DNA of 64,000 bases from contig JAFSQE010000007.1 of assembly GCA_017446775.1 (NCBI GenBank), positions 1 to 64,000 on the forward strand, written 5' to 3'. Below are positions 2 to 53,906 of this stretch, piece by piece (within the stretch, counting starts at the first letter, position 1; each line of letters opens with the position of its first letter). The position numbers and the translations under genes were made by a program. A model generated the notes under the pieces. It ran no database searches. It saw only the letters and a list, made by a program, of their open reading frames with translations, and had not been told where the DNA came from. This stretch comes from Bacteroidales bacterium (GTDB lineage: Bacteria; Bacteroidota; Bacteroidia; Bacteroidales; UBA932).

Positions 2-550
2 GACAAAGTTTACTTGTTGCTGGCTGTAATGGTCGCTACCGTCCTGCTGATAGTGATACTTCACCATTACGTCTGGAGAACAATCACACAGACAGGTTCG
101 ATCCGCAGCGAGAGAGATATTTCGCCAATGCTCATCAACCCGGCATTTTTGGGGCTCATACTCACAGCGTCGGCAATCGGAGATTACTTCTGGACCAAAT
201 GGATAGACAAACGGTTCAAGGCTAAAGACCCCACCATCACCTTCTTCTCCGAACGCAAGAGCGTCACACTACGTCTAGCCGACATCGCCTATATAGAATC
301 CAACGACACAGAGGTACGAATAGTCACTGTCACGGCAGAATCATACCGCAATAAAACCGGTATCAGCCAATGGGAAAATCTTCTTGGTGATGAATTCCTT
401 CGGATTCACAGGTCATATCTGGTCAATACAGCTCACGCTACCCTCATAGCCCCCGATACCGTCACCGTTGCCGACGCCCGCCTTCCCGTCTCCCGCAAAT
501 ACAAAGAATGGGTGTGCGCGGTGTTGCAAACAGAATCGAGGGCCTGTTGA
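2..550 (+). CDS. membrane-anchored LytTR DNA-binding regulator (5' partial)
   Basis: The reading frame is open from the first bases of the window with no upstream stop, so the gene starts outside; a TTG at 14 is possible but unconvincing. The visible N-terminal part has two hydrophobic stretches (about residues 1-20 and 45-60), consistent with the end of a membrane domain. After that comes a LytTR domain, with the typical 'LADIAYIESNDTEVRIVT' and 'FLRIHRSYLVN' segments. LytTR domains bind DNA; membrane LytTR proteins in Bacteroidota act as one-component regulators or as partners of LytS-like kinases. Its target cannot be told from this window. Confidence 0.85.
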   Translation, partial: DKVYLLLAVMVATVLLIVILHHYVWRTITQTGSIRSERDISPMLINPAFLGLILTASAIGDYFWTKWIDKRFKAKDPTITFFSERKSVTLRLADIAYIESNDTEVRIVTVTAESYRNKTGISQWENLLGDEFLRIHRSYLVNTAHATLIAPDTVTVADARLPVSRKYKEWVCAVLQTESRAC

Positions 551-572
551 CAAATCGTCCGGGATATGGCGT

Positions 573-659
573 GCTCCCAATGGCGTCAAATTTCTGCCAT
601 TGGGGGCAAAATTGGCCGTTTTTGCTCCCAATGGGGGTTGGAAAACTTCCATTGGGGGC
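573..659. repeat. left REP-like palindrome array, two units, 51-bp period
   Basis: Two imperfect hairpins begin at 573 and 624. Each has an 11-base left arm GCTCCCAATGG (573-583 and 624-634) and a right arm CCATTGGGGGC (597-607 and 649-659), with loops of 13 and 14 bases. The inter-hairpin spacer 608-623 is A- then T-rich. The same arms and the same 51-bp period return at 1914-2050 on the other side of the transposase gene. This is the layout of REP/BIME arrays around a RAYT gene. Confidence 0.85.
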
Positions 660-687
660 AGGGAGGGTGAAAATAGAAGCAAAAAGA

Positions 688-720
688 TTTGGAATCCGGG
701 CTTTCCGGTTATTATATTTG
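688..720 (+). promoter_or_regulatory. promoter of the RAYT gene
   Basis: TTTG at 688-691 and TATATTTG at 713-720 match the Bacteroidota -33 (TTTG) and -7 (TAnnTTTG) elements with a 21-bp gap. The start codon of the transposase follows 35 bases later, and there is no obvious Shine-Dalgarno sequence. Confidence 0.6.
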
Positions 721-755
721 TGTTGGCAGAGCACTGTGGCTTTGACAAATAGATT

Positions 756-1637
756 ATGAACGAGGCGGTGAAGATTTGGCTTGTCACTACAGATCATCTG
801 GAGGATGGATTGTGGTTTCCGGAAGAGGCGGATTTTAAGGCGGGGATGAATTATGTTGCGGTGCTCGCGGCCGAAGAGTCGGTGTCCGTACTGGCTTTTG
901 TACTGATGTCAAATCATGTGCATTTTGTTCTGGCGGGTACGTGCGAGGATGTTGAGCATTTCATCAATGAACTCAAGCGGCGGAACTCGAAGTATCTTCG
1001 CATCAAATACGGCATCGATAAACTTCTCAAGGGCAATGATGTGGATCTTAGGGAGATACCGATTGAAAACGAATCGGTGGAACGTGCTGTGGCCTATGTG
1101 CAGATGAACCCGGTGGCGGCAAACATCTGTGCCTACCCGACCCAGTATCCGTGGGGAAGCGGAAACGTATTTTTTAACGTTACGGCCCCAAAAGGCGTCC
1201 GTCTGGATTCCATCTCTAGCCGCGCGCGCATCAGGATTCTCCATAGCAAGTCTTATGTGCCGGGTCACTGGCTGGTAGGGGAGGACGGGTACATACTCCC
1301 AAGTTCTTATGTCAAGTGGGAGAATGTAGAGAAGATGTTTCGCACCCCCGGCCGGATGGACTACTTTTTAAGGACTTCCTCAAAGGCGAGGACCAGACTG
1401 GAGTCAGGAGAAAGGGCAATTCCGGGATTCAAAGATCAGACGGTTTTGTTGGCTCTTCCCGATTTGTGCCGGACTCTATTCCAAAAAGAGTCTTTCGAAG
1501 AGCTTTCTCAGAATCAGAAAGTCGAGATGCTCCGCCAGTTACGTTACCGTTTCTCCAGCAACGTTCATCAGCTGGCCCGCGTGACGCACCTTAGCTATGA
1601 TGCCGCAGCCAAACTGATGGACTCCCACGTTGATTAA
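756..1637 (+). CDS. REP-associated tyrosine transposase (RAYT, Y1/TnpA_REP family)
   Basis: This 293-residue protein has the HUH motif H54-V55-H56 inside 'MSNHVHFVL', the metal-binding core of Y1 single-strand transposases. The helix 'AVAYVQMNPVAANICAYP' carries the likely nucleophile Tyr114 and the 'NPV' and 'YPW' hallmarks of RAYTs. RAYTs nick and rejoin single-stranded REP hairpins and are usually single-copy, domesticated genes. A C-terminal region (about 150-293) beyond the catalytic domain ends in a helix-rich segment that may bind DNA. The gene lies between two arrays of one palindrome, which supports the call strongly. It has its own promoter. The base composition looks less G+C-rich than the PUL downstream (by eye only). 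Confidence 0.9.
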   Translation: MNEAVKIWLVTTDHLEDGLWFPEEADFKAGMNYVAVLAAEESVSVLAFVLMSNHVHFVLAGTCEDVEHFINELKRRNSKYLRIKYGIDKLLKGNDVDLREIPIENESVERAVAYVQMNPVAANICAYPTQYPWGSGNVFFNVTAPKGVRLDSISSRARIRILHSKSYVPGHWLVGEDGYILPSSYVKWENVEKMFRTPGRMDYFLRTSSKARTRLESGERAIPGFKDQTVLLALPDLCRTLFQKESFEELSQNQKVEMLRQLRYRFSSNVHQLARVTHLSYDAAAKLMDSHVD

Positions 1638-1683
1638 TACTGGTGTGAGAAATCATGGGTAGCGGTCATAGCGAATGCTTAAG

Positions 1684-1843
1684 GTTGGCACTTGCCTCAA
1701 AGAAACCGTGGGCGCCCGTGCCCTCGTAAAACGGGAGGGGCCCGACGCAGACAAGTTATCAGCGCAGCGGATGACGCAGGAAGCGTTGGGAGGGATGGAA
1801 TGAGCGCTAAGCGAATGGAAGTTTCAGTGAGGCAAGTGCCAAC
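1684..1843. other. 160-bp inverted-repeat element, candidate structured RNA
   Basis: GTTGGCACTTGCCTCA (1684-1699) is the exact reverse complement of TGAGGCAAGTGCCAAC (1828-1843). A second 5-bp pairing, GAAAC (1702-1706) with GTTTC (1821-1825), continues the stem after a 2x2 internal loop. The enclosed, mostly G+C-rich segment has further local pairing, for example CCCGT with ACGGG and GGGC with GCCC around 1711-1750. The short open frame across it (1692-1889) has no recognisable protein. It does not match any RNA family I can recognise, and could be an ncRNA, a small non-autonomous element or part of the RAYT unit. The rest of the gap (1638-1683 and 1844-1913) shows nothing clear. Confidence 0.5.
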
Positions 1844-1913
1844 GAAGCGGGGTGGCAGAATAGGGGGCATAGAGGATGTACGGTATTGACTGGAATAAAT
1901 ATCAAGCCGGTAT

Positions 1914-2050
1914 GCTCCCAATGGGGTAAAACTCCCGCCATTGGGAGCAAAATCGATCAAAAATGCGCCCAATGGAAGTTTCTGCCCGCCATTGGGAGCA
2001 AAATCGATCAAAAACGCTCCCAATGGAAGTTTCTGCCCGCCATTGGGAGC
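1914..2050. repeat. right REP-like palindrome array, three units, 51-bp period
   Basis: Hairpins start at 1914, 1965 and 2016, exactly 51 bp apart. Left arms are GCTCCCAATGG (GCGCCCAATGG in unit 2) and right arms CCATTGGGAGC (1938-1948, 1989-1999, 2040-2050), with 13-base loops. Units 2 and 3 have identical loops, and the spacers differ only in their last base (AAAATCGATCAAAAAT/C), so recent unit duplication is likely. Because 51 is a multiple of three, the array yields a repeated but meaningless peptide in translation. Confidence 0.87.
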
Positions 2051-2179
2051 ACCTGGGCGATGGATCGCGAGAAGTATTCGGTCAAGTCCAGGACAATCTT
2101 AAAATAATAGCAAAAAACTGAAGCCGAATGGCTGGTATTTGCTAAAAAATTCTTAAAATTGTAAAAAATATCACCCGCA

Positions 2180-2211
2180 TAGTCAATCGGTTGACTAAAA
2201 CCGGTTGACTA
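2180..2211. promoter_or_regulatory. LacI-type operator pair upstream of the first PUL operon
   Basis: TAGTCAATCGGTTGACTA (2180-2197) is an 18-bp near-perfect palindrome centred on CG, the usual symmetry of LacI-family operators. A second, overlapping copy (2194-2211) keeps the right half CGGTTGACTA but has a degenerate left half. The pair ends 22 bp before the PfkB kinase start. Promoter elements here are weak; TATTTG at 2136-2141 could act as a -33. The first ten bases recur at 21057 before the second operon. The LacI gene at 29181 is the obvious candidate regulator. Confidence 0.6.
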
Positions 2212-2233
2212 ACTGATTAAAAGACAATTGAGT

Positions 2234-49952: not shown

Positions 49953-50657
49953 TCAACCCGCGAAGTTATTCGATGAAAGGAAATAATCCAAAGAAATTGC
50001 GTTATTTATTTCAAAATCACCGCTTAATGTGCGTCTGAGGGCGGTAAGATGGGCACCGCTGCCCACCGCAAGACCCAGATCCCGCGCAAAAGAACGGATA
50101 TAGGTCCCTTTGCTGCAGCGGATGCGGACGGTGGCCTGCGGCCGGAGGGAGGGGGCGCTGCCAAAATCCAGCAGTACGGCCTCTTCTATTATGATGGGGG
50201 CTGCCTTAACATCTACCGGTTCTCCGGCTCGGGCATACTCGTAGGCCCTTATACCGCCTATCATCTTGGCAGAAAAGATTGGAGGGACCTGCTCTTGCGG
50301 CCCGATAAAGCGCGCAAGAGCCTCCTCAACTATGTTTTTTGTGATGTGTTCGTGTGCGTATGTCGCATCGATCTCCTTCTCCAGGTCGTAGCTCGGAGTG
50401 GTTGCGCCAAACTCTATGGTTGCGACATACTCTTTGGTGTGGGCCTGCAGCTGTTCTGCTATCTTGGTGGCGCGTCCTACGCAAACCAGCAGCAACCCTG
50501 TTGCCAGGGGGTCCAGGGTGCCGGCATGTCCCACCTTGAGATTCTTCTGGTGGAAGTGCTTCTGCAGGGTGAATTTGATCTTGCGCACCGCATCGGCGCT
50601 GGTCCAGCCCAGGGGCTTGTCCAGAACTATGACCATCCCGTCGGGATAGCTCTCCAT
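49953..50657 (-). CDS. truB: tRNA pseudouridine(55) synthase
   Basis: 234 residues from ATG 50657. The start of the domain 'GMVIVLDKPLGWTSADAVRKI' and the catalytic Asp in 'VGHAGTLDPLATGLLLVCVG' are intact, followed by 'YVATIEFGATTPSYDLEKEI', 'PPIFSAKMIGGIRAYEYARAG' and 'RCSKGTYIRSFARDLG'. The frame is open further upstream into rpiB, but those residues do not fit TruB. The C-terminal PUA-like domain of longer TruB proteins is reduced, as is common in Bacteroidota. It modifies U55 in tRNA. Confidence 0.93.
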   Translation of the reverse strand: MESYPDGMVIVLDKPLGWTSADAVRKIKFTLQKHFHQKNLKVGHAGTLDPLATGLLLVCVGRATKIAEQLQAHTKEYVATIEFGATTPSYDLEKEIDATYAHEHITKNIVEEALARFIGPQEQVPPIFSAKMIGGIRAYEYARAGEPVDVKAAPIIIEEAVLLDFGSAPSLRPQATVRIRCSKGTYIRSFARDLGLAVGSGAHLTALRRTLSGDFEINNAISLDYFLSSNNFAG

Positions 50658-52418: not shown

Positions 52419-53906
52419 CTAGTGTTCATCTGATGATATGTCAAATAGGCCTCTGATAAAGCCGTTGGCTTTCTGTTCCAGTTTGCTGGGCTGGCGGGGT
52501 GGCTGTACGGGGGTGACAACCTCCTCGGTCTCCTCCTCGTCCTCTTCCTCTTCTTCCTCTTCCTGTGCCCGGCGCTCTTCTTCTTTGCGGCGTGCCTTCT
52601 CTGCCGCCAGCTGGGCTTTCATCCGCTGCTTCTCTTCTTTCTCCATGCGGCGTTTTTCGCGCGGCGAGAGGCGCCTGATTATCTGGTCCTTGAACATGTC
52701 GGTCTCTTTCATGGGTTTGGCCTCCCTCACCACTGCGCGCCCGCTGTCTATTTCGCTCAGGTTGTTGAAGCTGTCTATCAGCGCACCCAGGATAGAGCAG
52801 GCGGTGGTATCAAAGCAACTTTGCTTTGAACTCTCCGATATGTTGCCCTGGGCGTTGGCAAGGCGGACCCTCATGCCGGTAATGGCGCGGGCAAGCTCTT
52901 TGATATGTTCCATATAGGCCGTGCCGCCGGTTATTACCAGCCCGGTGGGAATCTTGTTTATGTATCCCGACTTCTCTATCAGGTAGTAGGCAGCCTCCAG
53001 AATCTCGCTCACGCGCGCCTCGACAATCTGCTGCAGAAAGTCCAGCGGGACATCCTTGGTCTCTCCGCCGCCGACACCCTGCACCACAAGCTTCTTGTTC
53101 TCAGTGAACCCTTCGTCTATGCAGTTGCCGTATTTCATCTTGATTATCTCGGCCACGTCGGTGGTCAGGCAGGTATGGTAGCGGATGTCGCTGGTGATGG
53201 TGTTCCCGGCAAAGGGGATGACCCCCACCGTGCGCACGATGCGGTCTTTGACAACCACCACGTCTGTGGTTCCGGCGCCGATATCAAGCAGTGCGACACC
53301 GTTCTCCATCTCGTTTTCGTTAAGGGTGGCGATGGCGCTGCCGATGGGCGAGAGCACGGTGCGGACAACCTTCATGCCGCACTTCTCTATCACGTCGCGC
53401 TTGTTGCGGTCGGCGCTGTACTTGCCAAGTATAAGGCGGTAGCGGGCCTCCACATAGTTGCCGCACATACCCTCTACCTGATCCGGAGGGTTGCCGATGC
53501 TGTCGTCTATGTCATAAGCCTGGGGGATGACCTCCAACACGGTCTCGCCCGCCACGGTCTCTGCCTGAAAGGCCTTGTCGCGCCATTGCTGCAGCTCTTC
53601 CGGAGTGATGTAGTTGCTGCCGCTGCGCTTTGCCCTTAGGGTATAATCCATGGTGCGAAGGCTCTGGCTGCCGGAGCAAAGGATTACGTCCGTGACGCTT
53701 TCGCCAAACCCCGACTCTATCTCCCGCTTGCACAGGGAGAGAGCCTCAATGATGCGCTGGGAGTTCTGGACGTCGCCGCGGGACATCCCCTTGGCCACCG
53801 GCACAACCTTGTGGTGCAATACCCTTATGCCGCCTTTGCCCAATTCCGCAACCGCCATGGCTACCTTTGAGGTGCACAATTCTACTGCTACTAAAAAGTC
53901 GTTCAT
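52419..53906 (-). CDS. ftsA: cell division protein FtsA
   Basis: 495 residues, longer than the usual 400-430. The actin-like core has 'LVAVELCTSKVAMAVAEL' (phosphate 1), 'NGVALLDIGAGTTDVVVVKD' (phosphate 2) and 'TGLVITGGTAYMEHIKELA' (adenosine). From about 410 there is a charged helical region rich in Lys/Arg, then a run of Glu/Asp ('EEEEEEEDEEETEE'), then Pro-rich sequence, and finally a short amphipathic helix 'KANGFIRGLFDIS' that should bind the membrane. It tethers FtsZ to the membrane. The extended acidic/basic linker is the unusual part. Confidence 0.96.
   Translation of the reverse strand: MNDFLVAVELCTSKVAMAVAELGKGGIRVLHHKVVPVAKGMSRGDVQNSQRIIEALSLCKREIESGFGESVTDVILCSGSQSLRTMDYTLRAKRSGSNYITPEELQQWRDKAFQAETVAGETVLEVIPQAYDIDDSIGNPPDQVEGMCGNYVEARYRLILGKYSADRNKRDVIEKCGMKVVRTVLSPIGSAIATLNENEMENGVALLDIGAGTTDVVVVKDRIVRTVGVIPFAGNTITSDIRYHTCLTTDVAEIIKMKYGNCIDEGFTENKKLVVQGVGGGETKDVPLDFLQQIVEARVSEILEAAYYLIEKSGYINKIPTGLVITGGTAYMEHIKELARAITGMRVRLANAQGNISESSKQSCFDTTACSILGALIDSFNNLSEIDSGRAVVREAKPMKETDMFKDQIIRRLSPREKRRMEKEEKQRMKAQLAAEKARRKEEERRAQEEEEEEEDEEETEEVVTPVQPPRQPSKLEQKANGFIRGLFDISSDEH

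Follow-up and report, generated by a model that had tools for sequence, protein, structure and literature searches.

For the TnpA-REP protein of E. coli, a RAYT, hairpin recognition, nicking, and rejoining have been shown in vitro; its helix alpha-3 contacts the REP (PMC8266576). REP classes follow their RAYT, and deviations are attributed to mutation or to loss of the RAYT (PMC3686654); the principle of enzyme-repeat coevolution is already known. Among the TnpA-REP subclasses, 2.6 (RAYT group 5) comes mostly from Bacteroidetes and is described with “atypical secondary structures”. The long subclasses 2.1 and 2.3 are reported without REPs, and the C-terminal helix-turn-helix (HTH) of subclass 2.1 is given as Bac_DnaA_C, HTH_23, or HTH_28 (PMC6006769). 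TIRtrons, or TIRYTs, comprise RAYT-like genes with non-GTAG flanking repeats, some of them double palindromic, and some of these families are dispersed (PMC3733652).

The present study concerns a RAYT gene near the start of a 64,000-nucleotide stretch of Bacteroidales DNA (the whole of which is called “the window”). The locus is probably part of a REPtron-like system, in which a chromosomal RAYT would act on its own non-autonomous family of palindromic doublets. Architecture, concentration in one clade, covariation, dispersed copies, a difference in unit number, and presence or absence at given sites were all read directly from the sequences; the mechanism is inferred.

Architecture of the locus

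The features are collected in Table 1. Five palindromes, two to the left and three to the right of an HUH/Y1 gene, had been described in a first-pass annotation of this DNA, and all five were confirmed, as was their start-to-start period of 51 bp in both arrays. The arms had been held to be identical; this was not the case, since GCGCCCAATGG stands in place of GCTCCCAATGG in the copy at 1964. When arms of 12 nt are taken, the loop measures 14 nt in the copy at 623 and 13 nt in the other four. As a tandem repeat, the right array has period 51 and 97% matches. The palindrome pattern was matched six times, counted strand-wise, in the window and never in 100 shuffles. Chance palindromes were considered and excluded by the shuffles, the flank enrichment, the doublet-score controls, and a reversed-pattern control (the last three are given below).

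Table 1. Coordinates of the features around the RAYT gene
Feature	Position	Strand	Remarks
LytTR-domain gene	14-550		start of window
Left doublet	572-660	.	dyads 572-608 and 623-660; linker AAATTGGCCGTTTT
RAYT (TnpA-REP type HUH/Y1 protein) gene	756-1637	+	293 aa
Structured element, RNA-like	1682-1854	+	downstream of the RAYT gene, before the right array; 43 pairs in a model of 167 positions
Right array, three dyads	1913-2051	.	dyads 1913-1949, 1964-2000, and 2015-2051; linkers AAATCGATCAAAAA
pfkB-type gene	ends 3241		after right array

The RAYT protein

The identification of the gene as a RAYT was borne out by the closest fold, the Y...NP signature, and placement in a tree. The HUH motif (NHVH) occupies residues 53-56, and Y114 lies within YVQMNP; H54, H56, and Y114 were invariant in 15 of 15 sequences. 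The best fold match was 4ER8, the E. coli RAYT with a REP hairpin. This entry surfaced by fold alone; no RAYT was matched when solved sequences were searched with a profile. The Pfam Y1_Tnp score was 23.9 bits (cut-off 23). The NCBIfam REP_Tyr_transpos equivalog scored 40 bits (E 3.4e-10), below its cut-off of 80, and by that model the protein is at best a remote member. In the tree, the window RAYT grouped with that of E. coli, and a 100/100 branch separated the two from 29 other Y1 proteins of Bacteroidales. These outgroups, most of which show Y...Q, came from the 30 best Y1_Tnp loci (one was dropped for a stop in frame); weaker, perhaps RAYT-like matches of other families were left out of the tree. 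The last residue of the Y...NP signature across 81 loci (the window and the best 80 of 289 relatives) was P in 10, C in 32, and S in 18, with 21 missed by the search expression. Matched protein segments in the clade spanned 277-305 aa.

The HUH core covers residues ca. 1-140, with a helix at 63-85 after the HUH strand; a helical middle part follows, and the C-terminus (ca. 220-293) is a four-helix HTH-like domain. In fold comparisons of the latter, ParB rows were in a near-tie with DnaA. Once overall identity was allowed for, the protein segment most closely linked to dyad sequence was residues 66-80, inside helix 63-85. This link passed when the segment was tested alone (0/2000) and failed the test over all segments, and the helix is suggestive only as a specificity determinant. 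From its location behind the HUH strand, we take the helix as the counterpart of E. coli alpha-3.

The doublet as repeat unit

The arrays had been described as repeats of one palindrome at a 51-bp period. That wording was not upheld: the repeat unit is an 88-bp doublet, made of a 37-bp dyad, a 14- or 15-bp A/T-rich linker, and a second 37-bp dyad. The doublet score was based on two dyads with alike arms (cut-off 58) and was applied to the same 81 loci, i.e. the window and the best 80 of 289 relatives. A doublet was found at 75 of the 81, the other six falling below the cut-off. With four other period ranges, only 0-1 of these loci reached it; dinucleotide shuffles gave 0/81, with a maximum of 45. 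None of 13 more distant RAYT loci outside the clade passed, two of them reaching 57. Control stretches 2.4-2.85 kb off the gene passed in 3 of 79 cases (70, 69, and 65), perhaps as further copies. For other Bacteroidales Y1 proteins, flanks were cut at fixed coordinates around the 30 best Y1_Tnp loci named above; 11 were too short, and one of the remaining 19 passed (L199, 64), which by eye is a 26-bp tandem repeat. Because the detector selects the best symmetric stretch, arm symmetry is not independent evidence, and the claim rests on these controls. At one RAYT locus outside the clade (L026), dyads were seen at a 72-bp period.

Dyad density was 2.88/kb in the RAYT flanks vs. 0.30/kb in control flanks (450-bp flanks, 80 loci). 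The modal dyad length was 37 (39 of 87). Spacings were counted at 80 of the 81 loci (L065, kept in the doublet-score tests, was omitted here); those of 51 (26 pairs) and 52 (18 pairs) stood out, the others having 1-3 pairs each. The half-spacing of 26 (63 pairs) represents a dyad between neighbors. The first-pass annotation had stated that a 51-bp period keeps the reading frame and that copies elsewhere are likely hidden in spurious predicted proteins. The former is true of some lineages, while others have 52, which breaks the frame; the latter happens only now and then, frames of at least 120 codons crossing the doublet in 3 of 19 fetched stretches of the type called C below.

Of 132 arrays located no more than 1.2 kb from the gene, 94 had exactly two dyads, 22 were single, three had three, and 13 had four to twelve. 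Arrays of at least two dyads stood on both sides of the gene at 35 of the 75 doublet loci, downstream only at 21, and upstream only at 13; the remaining six had none under the stricter arm match used for this count. The center of the 14-bp linker was G, G, C, C in 88, 80, 86, and 84% of 49 loci, respectively, and the whole word GGCC was present in 34 of 70 linkers. The stem foot was TGC in 176 of 300 arms. Of the stretches folded as single-stranded DNA, five of five formed separate hairpins at minimum energy (z from -4.9 to -8.9). GT[AG]G occurred in all four arms at 3 of 75 loci, in any arm at 19 of 75, and in no arm of the copies in the window; the GTAG guide that marks classical REPs is not conserved in this clade. 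The loops of the two halves were more alike in direct orientation at 45 loci and in inverted orientation at 19, with 4 equal (68 of the 75 loci, those with both dyads of 37 bp).

Copies in the genome and covariation with the RAYT

Dispersed copies, expected by the first-pass annotation, do exist in the genome of the window (G000), where 11 copies have the exact core. Allowing as many as two mismatches with a loop of 13 nt gave 18 copies, and the reversed-pattern control gave 0. Two exact copies with a 14-nt loop and a degenerate partner at C24 bring the number to 21 monomers (more degenerate copies lie outside the search). They occupy 10 sites, as nine doublets and one triplet; none is solitary. 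The five dispersed sites for which the full sequence was inspected (L001-L004) fall, as judged by eye, between the long open frames. Among 46 distinct 37-bp monomers of this kind (type A), the core CC[C/T]AATGG was almost fixed and the loop sequence free. Compensatory stem change within type A was weak, positions 5-12 barely varying; stem position 4 was often unpaired (Watson-Crick in 26 of 46). One of the 46, L122_3385, resembles a chance match.

Exact matches of three palindrome types were sought in 26 genomes of one genus, and no genome held more than one type. Type A (CCCAATGG) was present in five: 11 copies in G000, 15 in G010, 7 in G021, 6 in G018, and 3 in G023. Type B (TATGGGTCC) was present in three (G008, G019, and G005), with exact copies at the RAYT locus alone, and type C (GCGGTAGGT) in three (24 copies in G004, 8 in G015, and 6 in G001). 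The first-pass annotation had suggested comparing the palindrome with the presence of this RAYT. Over 25 genomes, exact CCCAATGG occurred in each of the four that have a RAYT of 70% identity or more and, against the expectation, in one (G023) of the 21 without; the one-sided Fisher probability of the co-occurrence was 4e-4. RAYT/palindrome pairs with differing stems can stand side by side in one genome, e.g. in G010 and G018.

RAYT identity was correlated with arm similarity across the 75 doublet loci from the window and the best 80 of 289 relatives (Mantel r 0.435, 0/5000 permutations), and after thinning below 70% identity (r 0.311, 46 loci, 0/5000). Because the gene and its flank share descent, which explains part of this signal, it is an association and not a proof of recognition. 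Enzyme and repeat appear to have evolved together. Together, the genome-wide copies and the co-occurrence support the earlier claim of a RAYT with cognate, dispersed palindromes in the Bacteroidota.

Four repeat-bearing genomes had no detected close cognate RAYT: G023 and G017 (type A), and G015 and G001 (type C). Copies in relatives without such a RAYT, which the first-pass annotation had counted against the pairing, thus occur, but at low copy only (three exact in G023; three with 1-2 mismatches in G017, found in a looser type A search of 10 genomes). The doublet G023:C98 sits at the site occupied in G000 (C23) and G021 (C2), so inheritance with loss of the RAYT is the simple reading there. 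Compared with the RAYT locus of G004, that of G015 has the inter-doublet stretch inverted and the RAYT reduced to ca. 30 codons. At the locus that it shares, G001 has a RAYT 70% identical, in opposite orientation to its neighbors, with another palindrome type beside it. Because these are metagenome assemblies, single junctions could be artifacts.

Movement and distribution

The left doublet, with conserved flanks, was also found in G021, G018, and G010. At the place of the right array, the window genome has three dyads and G021 two, a difference of one 51-bp unit. At an intergenic site between the same two genes, a doublet was present in G000 and G021 and absent in G018; G010 also has a doublet there, with the right-hand gene alone in common. 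At a second site, behind a common gene, the doublet was present in G000 and G010 and absent in G021, G041, G006, and G018; the right sides differ. No precise empty site with exact ends was found at the compared sites, the junctions of which were too diverged.

The gene upstream of the RAYT is common to G000, G021, G018, and G010, each of which has one RAYT copy at least 70% identical. A search of 72,556 plasmid and 50,697 phage records gave no match. Among 247 sampled genomes of the order (E ≤1e-10), the RAYT was matched only in its own genome and, at 31%, in one genome of another genus of the family. Of 289 relatives, the best 80 carry the label Bacteroidales or Bacteroidia, except one Prevotellaceae and one Clostridia (a 3.4-kb contig), and many of their titles name ruminant stomach samples.

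A structured element beside the RAYT

A strongly covarying element of 167 nt, absent from the first-pass annotation, lies downstream of the RAYT gene (Table 1). Positions 1676-1850 gave a much more stable fold than their shuffles (z -5.8), and an Rfam search up to E 1 gave no match. When six sequences were compared, 22 of 44 predicted pairs showed at least one sequence in which both sides had changed and pairing was kept. When 11 sequences were fitted to the model, 95.7% of cells paired and 26 of 43 pairs changed on both sides; the covariation score reached 0.561, compared with 0.225 after shuffling and no more than 0.123 when partners were slid. Of five measures, the one for further pair types stayed within the shuffles (50 vs. 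47.6, 126/500). In a model-independent alignment, 19 of 36 pairs were still changed on both sides. The set includes close kin (L061, L074, and L083; L206, L207, and L222). The strand given here, which is also that of the RAYT, is favored by one U-G pair that never varies and by a G-U pair that is common.

With overlapping loci counted once, 11 of 13 element copies above 25 bits adjoin a doublet (0-60 bp). Of the other two, L134 has no doublet within 500 bp, and L210 is cut by a contig end, with a doublet 96 bp off. A weak match (L038, 16.9 bits) has a doublet 100 bp off. In three cases (L222, L207, and L212), the element sits between doublets of two different palindrome types. A second covariance model, run on 52 sequence sources, found no additional copy. 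Because most of the searched loci were chosen for a RAYT or a doublet, the tight adjacency is informative and co-occurrence is not. The element is tied to the RAYT system by association only. A three-part system, in which this structured RNA would travel with the lineage-specific doublets of the RAYT, either as cargo that is mobilized or to control or guide the enzyme, is a speculative and rather improbable extension. The element is a separate new RNA candidate.

Proposed mechanism and alternatives

In the REPtron-like reading, each dyad would fold to a hairpin on single-stranded DNA. The HUH domain, probably via the helix after the HUH strand, would read the lineage-specific stem, and Y114 would nick beside the stem foot or within the linker. 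On rejoining, 51-bp units or entire doublets would be moved, duplicated, or removed. The role of the GTAG guide may fall to the shared foot, which is TGC or nearly so, and these dyads may also be bound in double-stranded form by the C-terminal HTH-like domain. Recognition of hairpins, nicking, and joining of single-stranded doublets are likely the mechanism.

That same C-terminal domain is the starting point of the main rival, in which the RAYT has been domesticated as a double-strand DNA-binding protein acting on doublets spaced ca. five helical turns. The bound doublets would organize or insulate gene ends, and mobility would be past or rare. We consider this unlikely.

The presence of an HUH/Y1 protein, together with arrays of at least two dyads on both sides at 35 of 75 loci, could also be read as an autonomous IS200/IS605-like insertion sequence made up of the gene and its flanking palindromes. 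This is largely refuted and very improbable: the window protein has YVQMNP and not the Y...Q of IS200-type proteins, it falls with the E. coli RAYT and off the 29 other Bacteroidales Y1 proteins, one copy at least 70% identical lies behind the same upstream gene in each of four genomes, and the gene is absent from the searched plasmid and phage records. A third possibility is that the palindromes serve as ordinary terminators or as RNA elements of 3' ends and lie near a RAYT by chance, as the several copies directly after stop codons or between genes might suggest. This is refuted as a full account and hardly credible in view of the RAYT-flank enrichment, the fixed doublet geometry, the covariation with the RAYT, and the non-overlapping types.

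Comparison with known systems

To return to the REPtron-like reading, the numerous RAYT/palindrome pairs, uniform in frame and diverse in stem, form a set from which to learn how an HUH protein picks a hairpin without GTAG. The set also suits testing how RAYTs spread repeats, which remains to be elucidated (PMC8266576).

The first-pass annotation had called the locus a complete REPtron-like unit in a Bacteroidota genome. A RAYT flanked by dispersed repeats stands; qualifying it, GTAG is not conserved, copies are few, and those of type B are confined to the RAYT locus. As in REPtrons, the RAYT is single-copy, chromosomal, and not mobile as a unit. BIMEs or REPINs consist of two REPs in inverted orientation and, in well-known cases, number hundreds to thousands of copies. 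Here the copy number is low (21 monomers in G000; 24 exact copies of type C in G004), the arms are symmetric, and the loops favor the direct orientation.

The system resembles the REPtrons of E. coli and other Proteobacteria (TnpA-REP groups 2 and 3; PMC8266576, PMC6006769) in its RAYT-side HUH/Y1 protein with the 4ER8 fold, in palindromes that flank the gene, in dispersed copies, in enzyme-repeat coevolution, and in doublets and tandem arrays. Unlike them, it has no conserved GTAG, a symmetric foot, a fixed 37-14/15-37 geometry, a C-terminal HTH-like extension, a low copy number, and loops more often direct than inverted. With subclass 2.6, as described in PMC6006769, it shares the phylum and non-canonical flanking structures with genomic copies. 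By that description it is set apart by length (277-305 aa against a median of 179 aa), by YVQMNP in place of YIH[QN]NP, and by a long C-terminal part. Subclass 2.1 (RAYT group 1), likewise compared by description, is similar in length and perhaps in the HTH-like domain at the C-terminus, which here comes close to the DnaA fold; it is reported without REPs, whereas the cognate palindromes are plain here. TIRtrons/TIRYTs (PMC3733652) are alike in their RAYT-like genes with non-GTAG flanking repeats, partly double palindromic and partly dispersed; the available text on them contains no mention of a fixed 51/52-bp doublet or of palindrome diversification within a genus. Doublet geometry without GTAG, combined with many types in a single genus, was not met in the portions of the literature searched, mostly papers accessible without subscription. 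The system is REPtron-like and a new variant, seen here in Bacteroidales genomes only.

Repeats and structured elements around the RAYT gene

Relatives of the structured element (see table) were found to adjoin doublets, the paired-dyad repeat units, at loci of six genomes of the genus (G004, G001, G005, G008, G019 and G021), and the G021 copy is missing an inner stretch. No match to the element in the window was returned by an Rfam search. Immediately 5' of the pfkB-type gene, a 14-bp near-repeat pair, AATCGGTTGACTAA and AACCGGTTGACTAA, forms a dyad that appears operator-like; a similar dyad was observed at locus L009.

Structured and repeated features in the window
Feature	Position	Size or period	Setting
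Covarying structured element	1682-1854	167 nt	downstream of RAYT
Near-repeat dyad	2180-2212		
Short tandem repeat	50399-50438	period 18	
Short tandem repeat	52531-52564	period 15	

Doublets at other loci

The segment flanked by two doublets has opposite orientations in G004:C88 and G015:C61 (L224 and L225), and the RAYT at this locus is truncated in G015. The doublets could be recombination ends. To the right of a type A doublet in L116 (G018:C92), a stem-loop was noted by eye, with the outer stem ATGAAAGC/GCTTTCAT; parts of it were matched at many sites across the genus genomes, and it is perhaps a second structured repeat family. At 2045-2310 of L120 (G010:C118), two near-identical doublets, 168 bp apart, lie within a GCCGGGCATGACGGATGCGG-type tandem repeat.

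RAYT-type loci with different repeats

Another RAYT-like gene of the window's own genome (292-1143 of L109, G000:C15) is followed by a long stretch of short GCCTGACCGT-type tandem repeats in place of dyads. Beside a RAYT outside the clade (L026, G014:C73), the dyads are GACTAGACA, with a GGCC-containing linker between them; their 72-bp period may represent a second geometry.
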